This document shows, in pieces, positions 20,267 to 34,408 of a stretch of DNA of 40,873 nt (its first letter is position 1; every line of letters begins with the position of its first letter). The stretch is taken from assembly GCA_937859745.1 (NCBI GenBank), contig CALMAQ010000187.1, forward strand, positions 1 to 40,873, written 5' to 3'. The position numbers were made by a program, and so were the translations under genes. Source of the stretch: an uncultured Verrucomicrobiota bacterium. GTDB taxonomy: Bacteria > Verrucomicrobiota > Verrucomicrobiia > Chthoniobacterales > SZAS-18. The notes under the pieces were generated by a model, which saw only the letters and a list, made by a program, of their open reading frames with translations, was not told the DNA's origin and searched no databases.

Positions 20267-22699
20267 ATGCCGATCCCCTCCGTGCTCGCCAAAGTTTTCC
20301 TTCCGATCACCGGCTACACGCATTGGCTGCACACGCGCTGGCCGGCGGGCACGGTGGAGCATCTGCCGGAGGTTGGTCCCGACGGCGAAACAAAATTGCC
20401 GGGCGTGCGGATCGTCGGCGATCTGAGCGGCATCCCGCTGCTAAAATTTTCCGCCGACACCGGGGCGCGGGCGGTGAGGGCGATTCTGCGTGAACCAGAC
20501 TTCAAAAAATCGGGCGGCGGCAACAAAGATACGCTTGACCTTGCCATCCTCGGCGGCGGCGTTTCGGGGATTTCGGCGGCGTTGGAAGCGAAGAAAGCCG
20601 GGTTGAAGTTTCAGGTGTTCGAAGCGGCAGAGCCGTTCACGACCATCGTCAATTTTCCGAAGGCCAAGCCGATCTACACTTATCCTACCGACATGATCCC
20701 GTCGGGGGAGATGCAGTTCCACGCCGATATCAAGGAGGCATTGGTCGAAGAATTAGAGCGGCAACGCAAAGACGCAGGGATCGAGGTGACGAACGCGCGC
20801 GCGGACCGGGTCGAGTCGAATCGTGATGGGGTGACGGTCCACTTTGCCGGTGACAATCCACTACCCGATGCGAAGGCGCGCCGGGTGATTGTCGCTATTG
20901 GCCGAAGCGGCGATTTTCGGCGTCTCGGCGTGCCGGGCGAAGACTCCGACAAAGTGGCCAACCGGCTGCACGATCCCGCTGACTTTGCCGGGAAGAACGT
21001 TCTGGTGGTCGGCGGCGGCGACTCGGCATTGGAAACCGCAATTGCGTTGGGTGGAGCAGGTGCACGCGTGACGTTGAGCTACCGCAAGAAAGAGTTCAAC
21101 CGACCCAAGAGTGAGAACGTCGAGAAGCTCAAGAAGCTGGGGTGCGAACCCGACGCAGGGGGGCAGGTGGAGCCGCCGCAATCCAACAAGGCAGGCACCG
21201 CCGCGACGACGGCCACGCAAAATGGCAAGAAAGGCGGCGCGCTCGCGCTCGCGCTGGGCAGCGAGGTGGTTCGCATCGAAGCGGCCAGCGTCACGCTCAA
21301 GGACGAAAACGGCGGGCGCACGATGGACAACGACGCCGTGTTCACGATGATTGGCCGGGATGCGCCGTTGGAGTTTTTCCGCCGCTCGGGGCTGCCGATC
21401 CGCAACGAATGGACGTGGTGGCGCGTGCTCGGGTGCGTGGCGTTCGTCTTGTTTTGCTTCGCCTTCTACCATTGGAAGGGCGGGCACCCGCAGGAACTGA
21501 CGTTCGGCGGAAAATCGCTCCAGCAGATTGCCGGGGAACGCCATTGGTTCCCGCTCAACCTGCCGGGCGTGTTGGAACGCTCCGGGGGAAGGCTTGCGGA
21601 GTGGTCCAACCGCGAAGGAAATCTCCTCCACACGATCAAACTGGGGCTGGGTGACGCATCGTGGTACTACGGGTTCCTCTATTCTGTCGTCGTGGTCATC
21701 TTCGGAATCCGTCGTATCCGCCGCCGACGGACGCCTTACGTGAAGTGGCAGACGATCACGCTGATGGCGATCCAGGTCGTGCCCCTCTTCCTGCTGCCGG
21801 ACCTCCTCTTGCCGTGGATGGGCCGCAACGGTTGGTTCGGGCCTGGACATCCGTTGCGCGGGCTGGCCGATCACCTTTTCGAGAGCTACGACGGCATGCG
21901 CGGCCACGAACGCGCGTACTGGCGCGCCATCGGCTTCCTGCTCGCGTGGCCGCTGCTCATCTACAACGTGTTCACGGAACAACCCAACTACGCCTGGCTG
22001 GGCATCTCCTTCGTGCAGACGTTCATGATTATCCCATTCATCGTCTGGCGCTGGGGCAAGGGAGCCTATTGCGGCTGGCTCTGCACTTGCGGCGCGCTGG
22101 CTGAAACCCTCGGCGACGCCCAGCGCCGCAAGATGCCCCACGGCTCCGGCTGGAACCGCCTGAACATGCTCGGGCAGGTCGTCCTCGCGTTCGCTTTCGC
22201 GCTTCTGGGCCTGCGCGTCGCGGGCTGGGTGATGGGTCCGCAGTCGCTGCCGTCCGCGTGGTTCAAGCGCGGTTTCGAGACGATCCCGTATTTCAATTAC
22301 CAATGGGGCGTCGATCTGTTCCTGAGCGGCGTGCTGGGAATCGGATTGTACTTCTCGTTCAGCGGGCGGACGTGGTGCCGGTTCGCCTGCCCGCTGGCGG
22401 CGCTGATGCACATCTACGCGCGGTTTACGCGGTTCCGCATCTTCGCGGACAAAAAGAAATGCATCTCGTGCAACGTCTGTACGAGTGTCTGTCATCAGGG
22501 CATCGACATCATGAGCTTTGCCAACAAAGGCGAGCCGATGGCCGACCCGCAATGCGTGCGTTGTTCGGCCTGCGTGCAGGAATGCCCCACGGGCGTGCTT
22601 TCGTTCGGACGCTACGGCGGCAACGACGGCAAGGAAATCCTCCTCGACTGCCTGCCCGCCTCGCCCGTGCTCATGAAGGAACACGACCGAGGCAAATAG
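20267..22699 (+). CDS. Fusion: FAD/NAD(P)-binding oxidoreductase plus membrane 4Fe-4S ferredoxin (NapH-like)
   Basis: LAILGGGVSGISAALEAKKAG, VVGGGDSALETAIALG, TM segments, CGWLCTCGALAE, CRFACPLAALM, CISCNVCTSVCHQG, CVRCSACVQECPTG. Confidence 0.85.
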   Translation: MPIPSVLAKVFLPITGYTHWLHTRWPAGTVEHLPEVGPDGETKLPGVRIVGDLSGIPLLKFSADTGARAVRAILREPDFKKSGGGNKDTLDLAILGGGVSGISAALEAKKAGLKFQVFEAAEPFTTIVNFPKAKPIYTYPTDMIPSGEMQFHADIKEALVEELERQRKDAGIEVTNARADRVESNRDGVTVHFAGDNPLPDAKARRVIVAIGRSGDFRRLGVPGEDSDKVANRLHDPADFAGKNVLVVGGGDSALETAIALGGAGARVTLSYRKKEFNRPKSENVEKLKKLGCEPDAGGQVEPPQSNKAGTAATTATQNGKKGGALALALGSEVVRIEAASVTLKDENGGRTMDNDAVFTMIGRDAPLEFFRRSGLPIRNEWTWWRVLGCVAFVLFCFAFYHWKGGHPQELTFGGKSLQQIAGERHWFPLNLPGVLERSGGRLAEWSNREGNLLHTIKLGLGDASWYYGFLYSVVVVIFGIRRIRRRRTPYVKWQTITLMAIQVVPLFLLPDLLLPWMGRNGWFGPGHPLRGLADHLFESYDGMRGHERAYWRAIGFLLAWPLLIYNVFTEQPNYAWLGISFVQTFMIIPFIVWRWGKGAYCGWLCTCGALAETLGDAQRRKMPHGSGWNRLNMLGQVVLAFAFALLGLRVAGWVMGPQSLPSAWFKRGFETIPYFNYQWGVDLFLSGVLGIGLYFSFSGRTWCRFACPLAALMHIYARFTRFRIFADKKKCISCNVCTSVCHQGIDIMSFANKGEPMADPQCVRCSACVQECPTGVLSFGRYGGNDGKEILLDCLPASPVLMKEHDRGK

Positions 22700-22703
22700 C
22701 CCG

Positions 22704-23621
22704 ATGGACGTCTGGATCGACACCGACCCGTCCATCGGCGTGCCACTTCACGAAGCCGACGACGGCTTCGCGTTGATCCAGGCATTCCACAGCCCCGAAC
22801 TTCACCTCCGGGGAATCAGCACGACCTACGGCAACGCCGGTCTTGCCACGACCACGCGCATCACCCGCGAAATGGCCGCGCGTTTCGGCGGTCCCGCCGG
22901 GATCAACGACACCCACGTCTTCCCCGGAGCTGCCTCCGCCCACGATCTGGGAAAACCCACCGCCGCCACCGAAGCCCTCCGCGCCGCGCTCGCCGAACGC
23001 CCGCTCACCTACCTCGCCCTCGCGCCGCTGACCAACCTCGCCACGTTCCTCACGCTCCACCCCGAGGCCGCGCGCCGCATCGAGCGCGTCATCTTCGTCG
23101 GCGGGCGCACCCCCGGCGTCCGCTTTCGCGCCGGACGCTGGAACCCCTACGAATTCACCGACGGCAATTTTCACAAGGACAACGCCGCCGCGGCGATCCT
23201 CCTGGCCGTCGGCTCGCCGTTGACGCTCGTGTCTGTGGAATGCGCCCTCCAACTCCTCCTCACCCCGCGCGAACTCACCCGCCTCGGCCGCGAGGGCGGC
23301 GATCCCGGCTGTTACCTCGCCACGAAAGCCCGCCTCTGGATGAATCTCTGGTGCTTCTGCTTCGCCGTGCCGGGCGCGGCGATCTTCGATTGTTTCGCCA
23401 TCCTGGCCGCGACGCACCCGTACCTGCTGGCAAGCGAGAAACGTTACGCGCAGATTTCTCCGGCGACCCATCATGACCAAGTGCCAACACCCCGGCAGAT
23501 TCATCTGATGGCGAGCCGCGAACCGCCAACATCGGGCGAGAGGGCGGTGACTTTTTGCTCCGAACCACTCTCCGAAGCACGCGAGGTGATCCTTGCGCGG
23601 CTGCTAGGCGCTACGGGTTGA
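22704..23621 (+). CDS. Inosine/uridine-preferring nucleoside hydrolase family
   Basis: VWIDTDPSIGVPLHEADDGFALIQAFHSPELHLRGISTTYGNA...LTYLALAPLTNLATFL...IERVIFVGGRTPG...EFTDGNFHKDNAAAAILL. Confidence 0.85.
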   Translation: MDVWIDTDPSIGVPLHEADDGFALIQAFHSPELHLRGISTTYGNAGLATTTRITREMAARFGGPAGINDTHVFPGAASAHDLGKPTAATEALRAALAERPLTYLALAPLTNLATFLTLHPEAARRIERVIFVGGRTPGVRFRAGRWNPYEFTDGNFHKDNAAAAILLAVGSPLTLVSVECALQLLLTPRELTRLGREGGDPGCYLATKARLWMNLWCFCFAVPGAAIFDCFAILAATHPYLLASEKRYAQISPATHHDQVPTPRQIHLMASREPPTSGERAVTFCSEPLSEAREVILARLLGATG

Positions 23622-24588
23622 CAAGCGCACCGCCGCAACTGCTCCCGGCTCCGGCGGTGCAGGCGTAGCAATGGTCGCCGGTGAGGATCTCCCGGTTCTC
23701 CACCAGCGCGGGGTCAAGATCCCACAGCGACAGACCACGTCCGCCCTGCCCATCGCGCCATTGCATCTTGAGCATCTGGTTGAAGTCGCAGTCGAACACC
23801 TCGCCCGTCCAACTCACGTTGATCGTGTCCCGGCACATCAGCCCCTCGACCGCCGCCGGATTGAACGATTCCACCAGCAAATCCATGTACTGCCCGAGCT
23901 GGTTGCTGTGGCGCAGGTAGGAGGCGAACCGGCTCACGGGAACGTTGGTGATCGTGTAGAGACGGTTGAACACGATGCCGAAATGCGCCCTGAGTTCGCG
24001 CTTGTAGTCCTCTTCCAGTTCCGCCTGCGGACCGGGCAGGGAAATGCCCTGCGGATTGTAAACAAGGTTCAGCGGCAACGCCTCGTCGCGTCCGTAGCCG
24101 AGGCGGTTGAGCAGTTGGAGCGCCTTGATGCTCGCGTCGAACACGCCGTCGCCGCGCTGGGCGTCCACGTTCGCCACCGAATAACACGGCATCGACGCCA
24201 CGATCTCCACGCGGCGCTCGGCCAGGAACTCGGCCATGCCGTCGAAGGCGGGTTCGAGCAGGATCGTCAGGTTGCAGCGGTCCATGACATGGCGGCGCGG
24301 AGTCATGGACGTGAGACGTTCGACGAAGTAGCGGAAGTCGGGGATCATCTCGGGCGCGCCGCCGGTCAGATCGACCACAGGGATGTCGGTGTGTTCGAGC
24401 CAGCCGAGGATGCGGTCGGCGGTCTCGCGCGTCATGATCTCCTTGCGCTTGGGGCCCGCGTTGACGTGGCAATGGGCGCACGTCAGGTTGCAAAGCTTGC
24501 CGACGTTAACCTGGAGGACTCTCGTGCGTGTCCGCCGCAACGGGGCGTTGTGACCGGCCAAGGTGGTGTCGAACCGGTTGAGAGCCAT
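23611..24588 (-). CDS. arsS: Arsenosugar biosynthesis radical SAM protein ArsS
   Basis: QVNVGKLCNLTCAHCHVNAGPKRKEIMTRETADRIL...VVDLTGGAPEMIPDFRYFVE...LNLVYNPQGISLPGPQAELEEDYKREL...GDHCYACTAGAGSSCGG. Confidence 0.9.
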   Translation of the reverse strand: MALNRFDTTLAGHNAPLRRTRTRVLQVNVGKLCNLTCAHCHVNAGPKRKEIMTRETADRILGWLEHTDIPVVDLTGGAPEMIPDFRYFVERLTSMTPRRHVMDRCNLTILLEPAFDGMAEFLAERRVEIVASMPCYSVANVDAQRGDGVFDASIKALQLLNRLGYGRDEALPLNLVYNPQGISLPGPQAELEEDYKRELRAHFGIVFNRLYTITNVPVSRFASYLRHSNQLGQYMDLLVESFNPAAVEGLMCRDTINVSWTGEVFDCDFNQMLKMQWRDGQGGRGLSLWDLDPALVENREILTGDHCYACTAGAGSSCGGALVNP

Positions 24589-24728: not shown

Positions 24729-25859
24729 ATGATCTTCATCCTGCTTCTCCTTGCCACGTGTTTCCTGGCGTTTTCCAACGGTGCGAACGACAACTTCAAG
24801 GGTGTCGCCTCCATCTACGGCAGCGGCACGGCGGGTTACAAGGTGTCGATCTCGTGGGCAACCGCGACGACCTTCGCCGGGTCGATCACCTCAATCCTTC
24901 TCGCGCAGGCACTGCTGAAGAAATTTTCCGGCAAGGGGTTGGTGCCAGACTCACTCGTCGGATCGGAGTATTTTCTTTTGGCGGTGACGCTCGGCGCGGG
25001 GCTGACCGTCATCCTCGCCACGCGGCTGGGTTTTCCCATTTCCACGACCCACGGTTTGCTGGGTGCGCTGATCGGTGGTGGATGGGCAGCGGTGGGTTTC
25101 GGCGGGGTGGACCTCAGCGCGCTCGGGAAAAGCTTTGTGATACCGCTGCTGCTCAGTCCGGTCATCGCCGTCGCGCTGGGTGCGTTCCTGTACGTGATCT
25201 TTCACTCCGTGCGCTACCTGCTGCGCATCCCGAAGGAATGGTGCGTGTGCATCGGCCAGGAAACGCGCGTTTCGCCGATGCCTGCCGCGGACGGGATGCT
25301 GGCCATGCGCACGATGACCGCGCCGCTGTTGGCGGTAGAGGGTGAAACCATCACCAGTTGCCAGGAACGCTACGGCGGCGCGGTTGCCGGCGTGGACGCG
25401 CAAACGCTCGTCGACACGGGCCATTTCCTGAGCGCGGGCGTGGTCTCCTTCGCGCGTGGCCTCAACGACACGCCGAAAATGGCGGCACTCCTGCTGCTGG
25501 TAAAATGGCTCACGCCCGCGTCGGAGATCGGCATTGTGGCGGCGGCCATCGCCTTCGGCGGGCTGCTCGGGGCACGCCGTGTGGCGGAGACGATGAGCCA
25601 CAAGATCACGTCGCTCAATCCGGGGCAGGGTTTCACGTCCAACCTGACGACGGGGATCCTCGTCATCCTGGCGAGCACGTATGGGTTGCCGGTCTCGACG
25701 ACCCACGTTTCGGTGGGCGCGCTGTTCGGCATCGGCGTGACGACGGGGCAGGCAAACGTCAAGACGGTCATGGGCATCGTGCTGTCGTGGATCGTCACGC
25801 TGCCCTGCGCCGCGTTGATCGCGGGAACGATTTATTTCATGGTCAGCAAATTGCACTAA
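24729..25859 (+). CDS. Inorganic phosphate transporter, PiT family
   Basis: [22 protein letters not shown]...[19 protein letters not shown]...[17 protein letters not shown]...[20 protein letters not shown]. Confidence 0.9.
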
Positions 25860-25866
25860 CCCGGCC

Positions 25867-26301
25867 ATGGCAAAGCAGAAAGTCCTGTTCGTCTGCGTCC
25901 ACAACAGCGCGCGCAGCCAGATGGCCGAAGCGTTCCTCAACGGAATGGGTGGCGACCGCTACGAGGCGGAAAGCGCAGGGATCGAACCGGGCAAGCTCAA
26001 CCCCGTGGTCGTCGAGGTGATGCGCGAAGCGGGGATCGATCTCGCCGGATGACCGACGAAATCCGTTGCGTCGATGATCGAGCGCGGCCCGTATTTCGAC
26101 TGCGTCGTGACCGTTTGCGACGAGACCAGCGCGGAACATTGCCCGGCCTTTCCGGGACCAGCCCGGCGGCTCCATTGGCCTTTCGCGGACCCGTCGAGCT
26201 TCACCGGCACCCCCGAGGAAAAACTGGCCGGCACGCGGCAGGTGCGTGATTCCATTCGTGAACGCATCGAAGCGTGGTGCGCTGCCGATGAAAACGCATA
26301 G
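25867..26301 (+). pseudogene. arsC: Thioredoxin-type arsenate reductase with one in-frame TGA
   Basis: [21 protein letters not shown]...GIDLAG*PTKSVASMIERGPYFDCVVTVCDETSAEHCPAFPGPARRLHWPFADPSSFTGTPEEKL; single frame apart from TGA at 26050-26052. Confidence 0.85.
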
Positions 26302-26388: not shown

Positions 26389-28986
26389 ATGGCTTCTCCC
26401 GATGATCTCTCCGGCAGCGGGGTTTCCCGCCGCAAGTTCCTGCGCGAATCGCTGCTGGGCGCGGGTGCGCTCGGCACCCTTGGGCTGGCTCCCGCCTCTG
26501 CCCCCGCGGCCAACGAAGGCAACTACCCGGCGACGGGCGACGCGGCGAGCCAGCAGTTTGATTTCACGAAGGCTTCGAGCGCGCTCCAGGCCGACCGGGT
26601 GGTGGACAGTGCCTGTCAGTTCTGCAATTCGCTCTGCCGTCTGAAAGTCCACCTCAAGGATGGCCGGATCATTGATGTGACCGGTGAAACCGCTGATCCC
26701 GTCCAGGCCGGGGGCCTGTGCGTCAAGGGTGAACAACTCATGACCCAACTCGTCTACAACCGTTTCCGGTTGAAGACGCCGCTCAAGCGGCTGGACGGTG
26801 AAAAAGGTTCGCCGGACTCGCGTTTCGAGCCGTGTTCGTGGGACGAGGCCCTCGACATGGTTGCCAGGAAGTTGCTTTCCCTGCGAGATGCAGGCGAGGC
26901 TCACACGGTTGCCAACAAGACCAGCGGCCGGCTAGCGCGGGGCGTTGGCTCGTTGGCGGGCCGATTCTTCACCTTGCTCGGCAGTCCCAACGACACAGAC
27001 GTAGGCCCGGTGTGCAACGACGCGGGCGGCAACGCGCTGGCCTGGACCTTCGGCCTCGGCAATTTCACCAACGGCTACGGCAAGGATGAATCCACCGGCA
27101 AGGAAGACCTTGGCTCGGCCAGATTTTTCCTGTTTTTCGGCACCAATCAGGCCGAAACGCACCCGGTCACCTTTTCCTACCTGCTGCGTTCGCGGGCCGC
27201 AACCGGCGCGAAGCTCGTCGTGGTCGACCCGCGCCTGACGCCCACCGGCGCGCAGGCCGATGCCTGGATCGCGCCGAAGCCCGCCACCGACCTTGCGCTG
27301 GTGCTGGCGATGCTCCATCACATCATTGACCGGGGATTGTACGACGCGGCATTCGTCGAAAAATGGGTGCTCGGGTTCGAGGAATTGCGGCGGCACGTCA
27401 CGGAAAAAGGTTACACCCCTGACTGGGCGGCGGGTGTCACCGGCTTGCCAGCGGCGACCATCCGTCAACTGGCCGAGGATTATGCGACGGCCAAGCCCGC
27501 TGCCATCTTCTGCAACGCCGGAATTTCGCACCAGATCGGCGCTTTCGACACCTACCGCACGCTCGCGTTTTTGGCGGCGATCACGGGCAACGTTGGCGTC
27601 AACGGCGGTGGGTGCAACTTCATGCACAACACCTGGCCGGGCGACCTGAAGCTGCCGGCCGTCGGCCCGGTGGCAACGGCCAAGCCCGCGCCCGCGCTGC
27701 CGGAAACCGAGCACCCGGAAGTCGTTGATCAACCCGCCGCCACGCCGAAAAAGAACGCCGCTTTACCGGTTGGTCCGGATTGGTTCGCGGAGGCAATTCT
27801 CCACGGCAGGCCCTACCCGCTCAAGGCGGTGATCATGGAAGGCAACCCGGCATTGGCGTCGGCGAACGCGAACAAGGTCAAGGAAGCCTACCGCAAACTC
27901 GATTTTCTCGTGTACACCGGGCTGTTCATGGAGGAGACGGCGTACTATGCCGACATCATCCTGCCGGTGTGCAGCGGCTTCGAGATGGAGACGGTTTACA
28001 TGCGCCGAGACGACCGGGCGATCCGGTGGCAGCATCAGGCCGTCGCGCGAGTGGGGGAATCCCGGCCTGACTGGGAAATCTGGATCGACCTCGCCGCGGC
28101 GATGGCCCGGCACGATCAGGTGAACCCGCCCGAATACTGGACCGACAACCTGCGCTCGGAGTGGCGCGACTACAAAAAACTCTGGAATGTGTTCTTGGAG
28201 AACACTCCCGGCATGGGTGGCATGACCCAGGAACGCATGGCCGCGCGCACCGAACCATTACGCTGGCCGTGCCCAACGCAGGAGCATCCCGGCGTCAGCA
28301 CTCTTTACCTGGAAGGGCCCTCTTGGGAGGCCGCCGTCACTGCGTTAAACCCGGCACACAAGGGGAAACGGTTCCTCACGCCCAGCGGCAAGGTGGAGAT
28401 ATTCACACCTGAAATCGACACGAAACTAGCGCGGGTGGGGCATGGCGCGCTGCCGGTATTCTATACCCATCCGGAGGTCACAGGCGGTTTGCCGACGGTC
28501 GAGTACACCGATGAACTGGTCGAAAATCCGGTCAATCCGCAGTCCCTTACACCCAAGGTTCGTCTGGGCGTGGCAAGGAGCGGCGGGCAGTCCGCTGAGT
28601 TCCCGCTGATGGGGATAGCAGGTCGTCCGAGCGTGGTGCATTTCCACTCGTTGACGCAATGGACCTACACCGGCAAGCAGATGAACGGTGTCCGGCTGGT
28701 GCAGATTCACCCGAAAGCTGCCGGGCGCGCCGGCATTGCCAACGGCGACGAAGTGACGGTGAGGAGCCCGCGCGGATCAATCAAAGCGACCGCGCTGTTG
28801 TGGGATGGCATCCGCGAGGACACGATCTTCGTGCCGATCTCCTTCGGGCCGGCGCAGAAGATGGCCGAGGAACTCGGCACGCCGTTTTATGAGTCGGTCA
28901 ACACGTTGTTGGACGACCGGTACTTCGATAATTTGTCCGGTCAGCAGGCATTCAAGTGTTTCGCTTGCCGGGTGCAGAAGGTCTAG
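26389..28986 (+). CDS. Tat-exported molybdopterin oxidoreductase (DMSO reductase superfamily)
   Basis: SRRKFLRESLLGAGAL Tat motif; CQFCNSLCRLKVHLKDGRIIDVTGETADPVQAGGLCVKG; FFGTNQAETHPV...VVDPRLTPTGAQADAWIAPKPATDLALVLAM. Confidence 0.88.
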   Translation: MASPDDLSGSGVSRRKFLRESLLGAGALGTLGLAPASAPAANEGNYPATGDAASQQFDFTKASSALQADRVVDSACQFCNSLCRLKVHLKDGRIIDVTGETADPVQAGGLCVKGEQLMTQLVYNRFRLKTPLKRLDGEKGSPDSRFEPCSWDEALDMVARKLLSLRDAGEAHTVANKTSGRLARGVGSLAGRFFTLLGSPNDTDVGPVCNDAGGNALAWTFGLGNFTNGYGKDESTGKEDLGSARFFLFFGTNQAETHPVTFSYLLRSRAATGAKLVVVDPRLTPTGAQADAWIAPKPATDLALVLAMLHHIIDRGLYDAAFVEKWVLGFEELRRHVTEKGYTPDWAAGVTGLPAATIRQLAEDYATAKPAAIFCNAGISHQIGAFDTYRTLAFLAAITGNVGVNGGGCNFMHNTWPGDLKLPAVGPVATAKPAPALPETEHPEVVDQPAATPKKNAALPVGPDWFAEAILHGRPYPLKAVIMEGNPALASANANKVKEAYRKLDFLVYTGLFMEETAYYADIILPVCSGFEMETVYMRRDDRAIRWQHQAVARVGESRPDWEIWIDLAAAMARHDQVNPPEYWTDNLRSEWRDYKKLWNVFLENTPGMGGMTQERMAARTEPLRWPCPTQEHPGVSTLYLEGPSWEAAVTALNPAHKGKRFLTPSGKVEIFTPEIDTKLARVGHGALPVFYTHPEVTGGLPTVEYTDELVENPVNPQSLTPKVRLGVARSGGQSAEFPLMGIAGRPSVVHFHSLTQWTYTGKQMNGVRLVQIHPKAAGRAGIANGDEVTVRSPRGSIKATALLWDGIREDTIFVPISFGPAQKMAEELGTPFYESVNTLLDDRYFDNLSGQQAFKCFACRVQKV

Positions 28987-28998
28987 CGAATTGCGCTG

Positions 28999-30066
28999 AT
29001 GATTCGTAAAGCCGATTTCCTTGCCCTCCATCCCGGCGTCTATTTTCTCGATGTAACCGATGTCCCCACGCTGAACGTGTATCTCACGGACGGAGGAAGG
29101 CTGGGTCCGCTCGAAGCCTTGATCAGCGTGGAAAAAGCGGGCGAGGGCAACATGAACTGCACGGTGCGGATCCGCACCTCGTCGGGCAGTTTTATCCTCA
29201 AGCAGTCGCGTCCCTGGCTGGAGAAATATCCGCAGATTTCCGCACCGTTCGACCGGGCATTGATCGAAGCACGTTTTTATCACCTCATCTCTGCAACAGA
29301 GGCGGTGGCAAGCCGGATGCCCCGGCTGCTGTGGGCGGACGAGCAGGCGCACACCCTGGCCCTCGAAGACCTCGGCCCGGCGAGCGATTTCTTCCCGCTC
29401 TACGCGCGTCAGATCGCGCTGTCCGATACCATTCTCTCCGCCTTGGTGAATTATCTCGCCGCCCTGCACCGACTGGCACCGGAACGGGGCGAGGATCGCA
29501 AACGATTCACGAACCACGAAATGCGGGTGCTCAATCACGAGCACATGTTTGCATTGCCGCTACGCGAGCCGAATGGCCTCGATCTCGACGCTCACACGGG
29601 GACACCGGGCCTGACCGCGGTCGCTGCTTCGCTGAAGGCTGATGCCGCTTATGGGCAAGCGGTGGCTGCGTTGGGCGAGCGGTATCTGCACGGAGAGGGC
29701 GAAAATTTGTTGCACGGTGATTTTTTCCCCGGCAGCTTTCTGCGAACCGCAGCGGGTGTAAGGATCATCGACCCAGAATTCTGCTTTTGCGGTGACGCGG
29801 AGTTGGACCTGGGTGTTCTGGCCGCACATCTGTTGCTGGCCGGTGAACCTACCGACCGCGTGGAGAGCATCTTATCTCTCTACCACGCGGCGGGCGGCGG
29901 TTTTTCTTCTGCGTTGGTCCGGCAGTACGCCGGGGTCGAGATTATGCGCCGATTGATCGGCGTGGCGCAGATCCCGACTCTCAAAGCCGGCCTTGCGCGC
30001 AAGACGGATTTGCTGGCGTTGAGCCGGCAACTGCTGCTGGCACCGGAGCAATCGTTCTCCGTTTAA
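28999..30066 (+). CDS. 5-methylthioribose kinase-like phosphotransferase
   Basis: GEGNMNCTVRI, ILKQSRPWLEKYP, FDRALIEARFYHL, LALEDLG, LLHGDFFPGSFL, IIDPEFCFCGDAELDLGVLAAHLLLA match the MtnK-type layout. Confidence 0.7.
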   Translation: MIRKADFLALHPGVYFLDVTDVPTLNVYLTDGGRLGPLEALISVEKAGEGNMNCTVRIRTSSGSFILKQSRPWLEKYPQISAPFDRALIEARFYHLISATEAVASRMPRLLWADEQAHTLALEDLGPASDFFPLYARQIALSDTILSALVNYLAALHRLAPERGEDRKRFTNHEMRVLNHEHMFALPLREPNGLDLDAHTGTPGLTAVAASLKADAAYGQAVAALGERYLHGEGENLLHGDFFPGSFLRTAAGVRIIDPEFCFCGDAELDLGVLAAHLLLAGEPTDRVESILSLYHAAGGGFSSALVRQYAGVEIMRRLIGVAQIPTLKAGLARKTDLLALSRQLLLAPEQSFSV

Positions 30067-30075
30067 CGCGGCTGT

Positions 30076-31236
30076 TCAACAGCAACTGTCGGCATCGCAG
30101 CAATTACTGGCCCCGGTGGTTACAGTGTAATCCTGGCCCTTCGTCTCTTTCGGGTGGCGCAGGGCAGCAGCGCGCGGTCGGTCGAATGGTTTCGCTTGCT
30201 CCAGCGGAACCGTCTCACGAGGTTCGACGAAGTCGAATTGTTCCGTGTACGGCGCCTTGCGGTACAGATTGTAGGTCTTGTCGCACACCGCGTACCGGCG
30301 TCCGCGCTCCATCCGGTGGCCGTCATCGTCGAGCACCTCCTTGAAAGGCCCCTTGTACACGACCGCCTGATTGCGTTCCAAACACGGCCCCTGCTTGCCC
30401 TTGAACGCCTCGATAGTCACCGAGCGGAACTCGATTCCCTCGACCGTTTGCCAAGGGTCCACGTCGCGCTTGAGAACTTGAATCCCATAGAATCCCGCCT
30501 GCTCGAACGCTTCAAGGAAGCCGTCTTCGGTCAACGCTCCCGAGATGCAGCCGCTCCAGAGTTCCGGGTCGTCTTGCAGGTGCGCCGGGCTGGCTTCGTC
30601 GCTGACGATGTCGGAAATCACCGCGCGACCACCGACTCGGAGCACACGGAAAATCTCCTCGAAAAGCCGTGGCTTGGATCGGGAATCCACGAGGTTGAGC
30701 ACGCAATTGCTCACCACCACGTCCACGGATTCATCCGCGACGAGCGGGTGTTTGAGCCGCAGTTCGGCGGCGAGTTCATCCGCCTTGAGGAACGAGGCGG
30801 CGTCGGTGATGGGTCGCTCGCGCAGGACGGAGTCGAAGCGTTCCAGGTCAAGACCGAGGTCCTGGATGCGCCCTTTGCGGAATTCCACGTTACCGTAGCC
30901 GATCCGCTCCGCGACCACCGGCGCGTTGCGCCGGGCCACGTCGAGCATCTCATCGGTCATGTCCACTCCGATGACCTTGCCCTGCGCGCCCACGACCTGC
31001 GCTGCAATGAAGCAGATTTTTCCCGTGCCGCTGCCCAAGTCCAGGACGGTCTCACCGGAGCACAGGTATTGGCTCGGATCGCCACAGCCGTAATCGCGCT
31101 CGATCACCTCTTGGGGGATGACCCTCAGATACTGCGGGTCGTATTCGACCGGGCAGCACAAGGCAGCCTCACGGGCCTGTGCGCCGCTGGCGTAACGTTC
31201 TTTGACGGCGGACTCCGGATTGATGGTCGTGTGCAT
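30076..31236 (-). CDS. arsM: Arsenite S-adenosylmethionine methyltransferase
   Basis: ALCCPVEYDPQYLRVIPQEVIERDYGCGDPSQYLCSGETVLDLGSGTGKICFIAAQVVG...GVDMTDEMLDVARRNAP...VVVSNCVLNLV; Cys-rich tail NCCDADSCC. Confidence 0.9.
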   Translation of the reverse strand: MHTTINPESAVKERYASGAQAREAALCCPVEYDPQYLRVIPQEVIERDYGCGDPSQYLCSGETVLDLGSGTGKICFIAAQVVGAQGKVIGVDMTDEMLDVARRNAPVVAERIGYGNVEFRKGRIQDLGLDLERFDSVLRERPITDAASFLKADELAAELRLKHPLVADESVDVVVSNCVLNLVDSRSKPRLFEEIFRVLRVGGRAVISDIVSDEASPAHLQDDPELWSGCISGALTEDGFLEAFEQAGFYGIQVLKRDVDPWQTVEGIEFRSVTIEAFKGKQGPCLERNQAVVYKGPFKEVLDDDGHRMERGRRYAVCDKTYNLYRKAPYTEQFDFVEPRETVPLEQAKPFDRPRAAALRHPKETKGQDYTVTTGASNCCDADSCC

Positions 31237-31344
31237 GAGATTGGGGCATCTGCCGATGGAATCCGCTCGGATGCCAGGAAATCGATTGGCTTCCCTCGTC
31301 GGGAGACCCATAGTACCACCGGTAGCACCTGCCGCCAAGCCACC

Positions 31345-33625: not shown

Positions 33626-34408
33626 ATGGTAGCGCGCTTCACCTCGATGGTTGTCTCGGCGGTAACCGGTCCACGTGTGACCGCAGGTCCTCCGGAGCCA
33701 TCCGACAAGGCGGAAGCCACGATCAGTATCATCGTGCCATGCTGGCGGGGTGACGCCGTGCCGCCTTCCCTTGCAACACGCTGGCTGGAGTACCCGGGCG
33801 TCTGCGAAATCATCGTGGCAACCGCCGATAAGGAGATGGCGACACAAGACGGATTGCCCGGGTTGCGCACGATCCACTGTACCCGTCACGGCCGGGGGAA
33901 CCAGATGAACGAGGCGGCCCGCACGACGACGGGCGATATCCTGCTGTTTCACCACGCGGATACGGAGTTGGCCGCAACGCATCTGCACAGCTTGCAAATT
34001 GCGATGGCGGCTGATTCGACGCTCGGCGGCGGTGCATTCCGACGCCAGTTCGATGAGCGCCACCCGCACCTCCGTTGGCTCGAACCCTGGGAAGCACTCC
34101 GCTGCCGCCGCTTTGGTCCGCTTTTCGGCGATCAATCCATCTTCGTACGGCGAACGGTATTCGAGGCACTTGGTGGGTTCGCTGACTTCCCGTTAATGGA
34201 AGACGTGGATTTTTCCTGTCGGCTGCGGCGTCATCAAAGGATTGCCTTGCTGGAACCAGCAATCCGATCTTCCACGCGCAAGCATTTCCAGCAAGGACGT
34301 TGGCGGACAACGTTTACCAATGCTTTTTTTCTCTTACTTTTCGTTTGTGGAATGTCTCCGTCTCGCTTGCACGCTCTGTATTATCGTCACACCGCAGCGA
34401 TTGATTGA
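33626..34408 (+). CDS. Arsenosugar-associated glycosyltransferase (TIGR04283-like, GT2)
   Basis: ISIIVPCWRGD...EIIVATADKE...CTRHGRGNQMNEAARTTTGDILLFHHADTEL...GGGAFRRQFD...GDQSIFVRRTVFEALGGFADFPLMEDVDFSCRLRR. Confidence 0.85.
   Translation: MVARFTSMVVSAVTGPRVTAGPPEPSDKAEATISIIVPCWRGDAVPPSLATRWLEYPGVCEIIVATADKEMATQDGLPGLRTIHCTRHGRGNQMNEAARTTTGDILLFHHADTELAATHLHSLQIAMAADSTLGGGAFRRQFDERHPHLRWLEPWEALRCRRFGPLFGDQSIFVRRTVFEALGGFADFPLMEDVDFSCRLRRHQRIALLEPAIRSSTRKHFQQGRWRTTFTNAFFLLLFVCGMSPSRLHALYYRHTAAID

Follow-up and report, generated by a model that had tools for sequence, protein, structure and literature searches.

What does an exported molybdenum enzyme do beside an arsenate reductase gene when the subunits usually found with such enzymes are missing? 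The question is raised by a locus in a Verrucomicrobiota genome of 4.13 Mb (401 contigs), which we studied in a window comprising the whole analysed stretch of 40,873 nucleotides. A first-pass annotation had placed a Tat-exported molybdopterin oxidoreductase with an N-terminal cluster motif between arsC and a kinase gene and had considered arsenic, inorganic or organic, among its possible substrates. The genes of interest are given below, with the basis of each assignment in brackets.

20267-22699, + strand: flavin/NAD(P) reductase joined to a membrane ferredoxin of NapH type, 810 aa in all (profile search, Pfam)
22704-23621, + strand: nucleoside hydrolase, IU_nuc_hydro (Pfam PF01156)
23611-24588, - strand: ArsS, arsenosugar-biosynthesis radical SAM enzyme (TIGR04167, 432 bits, cut-off 300)
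24729-25859, + strand: PiT-family (PHO4) phosphate/arsenate-type transporter (Pfam PHO4)
25867-26301, + strand: arsC, thioredoxin-type (LMW-PTP-like) arsenate reductase with an in-frame TGA (direct reading; 56% identity to the ArsC beside the Chthoniobacter ortholog)
26389-28986, + strand: single-subunit, Tat-exported molybdopterin oxidoreductase, 865 aa (ORF reading, Pfam, alignment, structure model)
28999-30066, + strand: kinase of the APH fold, nearest to S-methyl-5-thioribose kinase among curated families but scoring under the cut-off (profile search, Pfam)
30076-31329, - strand: ArsM-family arsenite methyltransferase (NF040538, 335 bits, below the cut-off of 500, which is arsinothricin-specific)
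33626-34408, + strand: TIGR04283-type arsenosugar glycosyltransferase (174 bits, just below the cut-off of 182)

The gap between arsC and the enzyme gene is 87 bp and that between the enzyme and kinase genes 12 bp, which bears out the gene order first reported; the PiT, arsC, enzyme and kinase genes all lie on the same strand. ArsS scores above its curated cut-off and is accompanied by the ArsM-family match, which is 75% identical to the ArsM beside an ortholog in genome G030 (locus L009). Judged by these family assignments, the window holds an arsenosugar-type cluster of ArsS, ArsM, nucleoside hydrolase, kinase, PiT and arsC, to which a DUF547 gene and the glycosyltransferase gene also belong. 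Neither these organoarsenical surroundings nor the recurrent phosphate/arsenate-type transporter described below had been noted in the first-pass annotation.

Several details of the cluster deserve mention in their own right. The nucleoside hydrolase is a candidate for cleaving the 5'-arsinoyl-deoxyadenosine made by ArsS. Together with ArsS and the methylthioribose-kinase-like gene it recalls methionine salvage: the family assignments suggest a route in which an adenosylated arsenical loses its base and the resulting dimethylarsinoyl-ribose is 1-phosphorylated. The 810-aa fusion, in which a YpdA/TrxR-like flavin domain is joined to a NapH-like membrane ferredoxin, is an unusual architecture adjoining arsenosugar genes and is possibly a local electron-transfer protein. 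As a general electron partner of the oxidoreductase it was rejected, since it is absent from all other orthologous loci.

The in-frame TGA of arsC (26050-26052) is codon 62, between GIDLAG and PTKSV, at a position that is non-catalytic in related ArsC proteins. It is possibly a nonsense mutation, an assembly error or a selenocysteine codon. The last of these is disfavoured by the non-catalytic position and by an ordinary downstream fold, as the RNA 3' of the TGA folds no more strongly than shuffled sequences (z -0.23).

The open reading frame of the enzyme encodes 865 residues, with coordinates exactly as first noted. Three Pfam domains exceed their gathering cut-offs, namely Molybdop_Fe4S4 (residues 70-120), Molybdopterin (127-570) and Molydop_binding (744-857). 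The N-terminus carries an SRRKFL twin-arginine signal followed by a hydrophobic stretch. The twin-arginine motif is present in 71 of the 72 relatives with complete N-termini, from which we predict that export is a trait of the whole family; a lipobox-like site is additionally found in 7 of these 72.

The [4Fe-4S] motif reads C76-x2-C79-x3-C83-x27-C111, and all four cysteines are invariant in an alignment of 52 relatives. The putative molybdenum ligand is C209 (codon 27013-27015), within VGPVCNDAGG. It aligns with residue 140 of FdhF (Cys/Sec) and with the ligand-cysteine position of FdnG, NapA, PhsA and ArrA, and it is invariant in 75/75 relatives, in agreement with the cysteine ligand suggested at the outset. 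The stretches DVGPVCND and GGGCNFMHN are signatures of the family's active site. An AlphaFold model (pLDDT 85.7) used in a fold search matched FDH-H and the monomeric NapA of Desulfovibrio (TM 0.70 for the latter), with ArrA lower among many matches from the DMSO reductase family. In general, the three domains, the overall fold and a cysteine ligand at the conserved position place the enzyme in the DMSO reductase / Mo-bis(pterin) superfamily.

Searches with NCBIfam and Pfam profiles found no Fe-S or anchor subunit adjoining the enzyme among the window neighbours. Clustering of the neighbours at 77 loci, which is blurred by spurious ORFs, revealed no recurrent partner-subunit family either. The reported absence of an adjacent ArrAB-, ArxAB- or PsrABC-type partner is borne out in the window. 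By analogy, the monomeric Desulfovibrio NapA may serve as a precedent for an enzyme that works without a partner.

To which family does the enzyme belong? All NCBIfam matches lie far below their cut-offs: 325 bits against 666 for Fdh-alpha, 277 against 694 for PhsA, 193 against 1600 for ArrA (NF041714) and 72 against 359 for AioA (TIGR02693). In the tree, the relatives fall into a single clade (100/100), separate from the FDH/Nap/Nas enzymes and from the DMSO/TMAO reductases. A clade with FdhF, FdnG and a homolog from genome G066 is rejected (p-AU 3e-8) and a sister grouping with ArrA alone is weakly rejected (p-AU 0.034). A position as sister of the PhsA and ArrA pair is compatible with the data (p-AU 0.36), with the deep placement unsure because the reference branches are long.

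Residues near the active site differ as well. Where FDH has His141 and Arg333 (FdhF numbering), the relatives have invariant Asn210 and His413, and the His/Ser of ArrA type ahead of the ligand cysteine is absent from the family. Of the residues that we take to contact the substrate in the ArrA structure, one arginine is kept (here R181); because they are mostly not conserved, the enzyme pocket would differ from that of the known arsenic enzyme. The family has T[ST]GR[LM] (SGRL in the window) where ArrA has (R/K)GRY and ArxA has XGRGWG (PMC6549141). On profile cut-offs, motifs and trees we rejected identity with ArrA, ArxA, AioA, FDH, NapA and PhsA, and the earlier proviso that the protein might fall inside a characterised clade did not apply. 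These comparisons point to a member of an unnamed, uncharacterised family of exported single-subunit molybdenum enzymes.

A scan of GTDB species genomes yielded 76 loci. Orthologs, which are 57-74% identical, are thinly scattered over Verrucomicrobiota, Cyanobacteria, Actinomycetota, Acidobacteriota, Planctomycetota, Myxococcota and a few other groups. Within an order-level sample of 197 genomes, an ortholog was present only in the window and in two others (73 and 69% identity); one same-order ortholog is that of Chthoniobacter flavus Ellin428 (G138). The gene is also carried by Nostoc and Streptomyces plasmids, and no relative was found in the viral contigs searched. The sparse presence, the high identity across phyla and the plasmid carriage suggest that the gene has spread horizontally. 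No AioA references were found in Verrucomicrobiota. The closest outgroup found is a 35% identical relative with an N-terminal ferredoxin-like extension on a Pseudohalocynthiibacter plasmid (L090, 9281-12208), where the neighbours include a hybrid-cluster reductase, a Rieske protein and betaine genes.

Is the association with arsenic genes a peculiarity of the window? As controls for 79 loci we took 20 windows, each of 20 kb, in five gene-carrying genomes, and both sets were searched with the same neighbour seeds, which were taken partly from the counted loci. Arsenic-specific genes or a bsnM+bsnN pair lay within about 10 kb at 41/79 loci and at 0/20 controls (Fisher p 5e-6), counts that are non-independent because many actinobacterial (Streptomyces) loci descend from a single ancestral operon, and the Fisher p-values accordingly overstate independence. 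The first-pass annotation had made its case depend in part on such linkage elsewhere, and it was found. No arsenic-specific gene was detected in reach at 38/79 loci, several of them on short contigs; these 38 include 14/16 cyanobacterial loci (most Nostoc copies among them) and 4/4 myxobacterial ones. The link between the enzyme family and arsenic is well supported.

Additionally, a phosphate-type transporter (Pst or PiT) is found near the enzyme at 34 of the 79 loci and at none of the 20 controls, and ars, ArsR or bsn genes are present as well at 32 of these 34 loci. The transporter place is taken by unrelated families in different lineages. PiT homologs occur near the enzyme at 11 loci besides the window; acidobacteria (L024, L075) have PiT as the window does, and actinobacteria have Pst or PiT. 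A full Pst operon is present at L009, PstBA at L048, and Pst at most Streptomyces loci. In two cyanobacteria (L025, L066), PstS alone accompanies ArsR, AqpS or ACR3, ArsH and ArsC. At 23 actinobacterial loci the enzyme adjoins AroA-like and iPGM-like (gpmI) genes of the bsnM/bsnN type, and some actinobacterial loci with Pst additionally carry ArsC, TrxAB, ACR3 and ArsO. The enzymes BsnM and BsnN have been proposed to convert As(V) to arsonopyruvate in bisenarsan biosynthesis (PMC12159101). Co-occurrence of the enzyme (1/397) and a close BsnN (2/397) in Actinomycetota samples gave too few positives to be informative. The repeated arrangement is that of an exported oxidoreductase, an arsenate-capable importer and the host's own arsenic pathway.

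Starting from features read in the sequences (the export signal, the cofactor motifs, the ligand position, the distinct clade, and the arsenic and phosphate-transport linkage), we infer the substrate, the direction of the reaction, the electron acceptor and the uptake of the product. Inorganic arsenic would be what the linked pathways, chemically different as they are, have in common. An exported enzyme that makes arsenate for import would suit bsnMN, whose substrate it is, and the arrangement parallels aioBA-ars-pst islands. With no quinone-linked partner and largely aerobic hosts, an oxidase with a soluble acceptor fits better than a respiratory arsenate reductase. We therefore favour, at close to even confidence, oxidation of arsenite outside the cytoplasm, with Pst or PiT importing the arsenate formed; the enzyme would be an analogue of Aio but a member of neither Aio nor Arx. 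Somewhat more tentatively, the family may be a further type of arsenite oxidase, distinct from both, that is single-subunit, Tat-exported, spread over at least six phyla and supplies arsenate for organoarsenical biosynthesis.

In such a scheme, a monomeric Mo-bis(pterin) enzyme with one [4Fe-4S] cluster would sit at the outer face of the cytoplasmic membrane and oxidise arsenite to arsenate at the Cys209-ligated molybdenum centre. A diffusible acceptor such as a c-type cytochrome, in place of a dedicated FeS or anchor subunit, would receive the two electrons by way of the 4Fe-4S cluster. Arsenate would then be imported by a phosphate-type transporter (PiT in the window, Pst or PiT elsewhere). 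The host of the window would reduce it with ArsC and methylate or adenosylate it with ArsM and ArsS in an arsenosugar-type route; actinobacteria would use it directly in BsnM/BsnN-type reactions, and cyanobacteria would simply deal with it by ars resistance genes. The context does not fix the direction, because both ArsC and ArsM of the window work on the reduced side, and where Pst adjoins arsenic genes its role may be to acquire phosphate in the presence of arsenate and not to take up arsenate.

How does the enzyme compare with known systems? AioA carries a 3Fe-4S cluster and holds its molybdenum without a protein ligand, whereas the present enzyme has the four-cysteine 4Fe-4S motif and a cysteine ligand, and a Rieske AioB is not among its window neighbours. 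Like Aio, it is a predicted extracytoplasmic Mo-bis(pterin) enzyme linked to ars and pst for which the same reaction is proposed; known arsenite-oxidase islands join aioBA, ars and pst (PMC3834237). With Arx it shares Tat export, the DMSO reductase family and arsenic linkage, but it lacks ArxB/C/D neighbours and XGRGWG. ArrAB resembles it in Tat export, the 4Fe-4S cluster, the cysteine ligand, a GSPN stretch ahead of the ligand and one arginine near the active site; no four-cluster ArrB subunit, however, is adjacent in the window or recurrent at other loci. PhsA/PsrA are also Tat-exported with a cysteine ligand and the GSPN stretch, but PhsB/PhsC neighbours are missing here. The monomeric periplasmic NapA of Desulfovibrio is alike in its single subunit, one 4Fe-4S cluster and cysteine ligand, yet identity is 24%, the NapA reference falls in another clade and the residues around the ligand differ. 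With the bisenarsan (bsn) clusters of actinomycetes the common feature is that genes of the bsnM/bsnN type, together with Pst, lie beside the actinobacterial orthologs; the review PMC12159101 does not mention a molybdenum oxidoreductase for bsn.

Among other readings, it is conceivable, though unlikely, that the substrate, oxidised (or reduced) outside the cytoplasm, is an organoarsenical such as methylarsenite or a trivalent arsenosugar or arsonate intermediate, and that the reaction serves self-protection or tailoring. The presence of ArsM and ArsS in the window and at L009, and of bsnMN, often with ArsO-type flavoenzymes, at actinobacterial loci would agree with this. Yet the products of these pathways are wholly different (methyl/ribosyl as against arsonopyruvate-derived), while the enzyme stays 60-70% identical, and the ars-linked loci of Chthoniobacter (L010) and cyanobacteria (L025, L066) have no detected organoarsenical gene. 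We find it rather improbable that the enzyme works in the direction of ArrA, as a periplasmic arsenate reductase providing arsenite for efflux, methylation or respiration. Such activity would suit the ArrA match in the fold search, the tolerated PhsA/ArrA sister placement and the arsenite requirement of the downstream ArsM. Against it stand hosts of the genera Nostoc, Streptomyces and Chthoniobacter, which are aerobic, the lack of a recurrent quinol-oxidising partner nearby, the missing (R/K)GRY and His/Ser features of ArrA, and bsnMN and importers that call for arsenate and not arsenite.

The transporter linkage at 34 loci and the overlapping chemistry of phosphate and arsenate would also accommodate oxidation of a phosphorus oxyanion (phosphite to phosphate), with import by Pst or PiT and a secondary arsenic linkage. 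This is very improbable, as 32 of the 34 transporter loci carry ars, ArsR or bsnMN and the accompanying ArsC, ArsH, ACR3, AqpS, ArsM and ArsS are arsenic-specific. An ordinary molybdoenzyme unrelated to arsenic, such as a formate dehydrogenase or nitrate reductase placed here by chance, would explain why Fdh-alpha is the best generic profile and a formate dehydrogenase the best PDB sequence match. With that profile far below its cut-off, both FDH residues replaced, the clade with FdhF, FdnG and the G066 homolog rejected and the ars linkage recurrent, we give this explanation the slightest chance.

Arsenite oxidation is generally attributed to two enzymes, Aio and Arx (PMC6549141). If the proposed arsenite oxidase is real, it would be a third one, present in aerobic soil bacteria and cyanobacteria, and it would alter how arsenic oxidation is read from genomes, as surveys of aioA and arxA would overlook it. 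By generating arsenate for uptake, it would also account for the first steps that have been missing from arsenosugar-type and arsonate-type biosynthesis, and the arsenate produced would feed detoxification or organoarsenic biosynthesis. Culturable hosts of the family (Chthoniobacter flavus, Streptomyces, Nostoc) make direct testing feasible.

The orthologous loci offer some further observations. At L089 (3010-16379), a CTP-synthase-like amidotransferase, the molybdoenzyme, bsnM/bsnN-type AroA and iPGM, pstS/pstCA/pstB and ArsR are clustered, and this arrangement is repeated in many Streptomyces (L029, L033, L035, L045, L046, L056). The cyanobacterial ars clusters (L025, 9824-16743; L066, 1-6599) contain a stand-alone PstS without permease, which could be a sensor or binder of arsenate or phosphate. 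In an acidobacterium (L075, 12519-16198) the genes after the ortholog encode PiT, a radical SAM protein of the Tes/TrsS type and a methyltransferase resembling ArsM, possibly another organoarsenical cluster. Between arsM and arsS at L009 (11860-16991, G030) lie genes for a metallophosphoesterase and an ABC transporter. The transporter is encoded by four genes, has a binding protein of the SBP_bac_6 type (phosphonate/iron-type) and possibly serves an organoarsenical. In Polyangium (L082, 9046-9876; L080), the gene immediately upstream, which lies on the other strand, encodes a tungstate-binding lipoprotein similar to TupA (154 bits, cut-off 400), and the cofactor metal of these orthologs might be tungsten.
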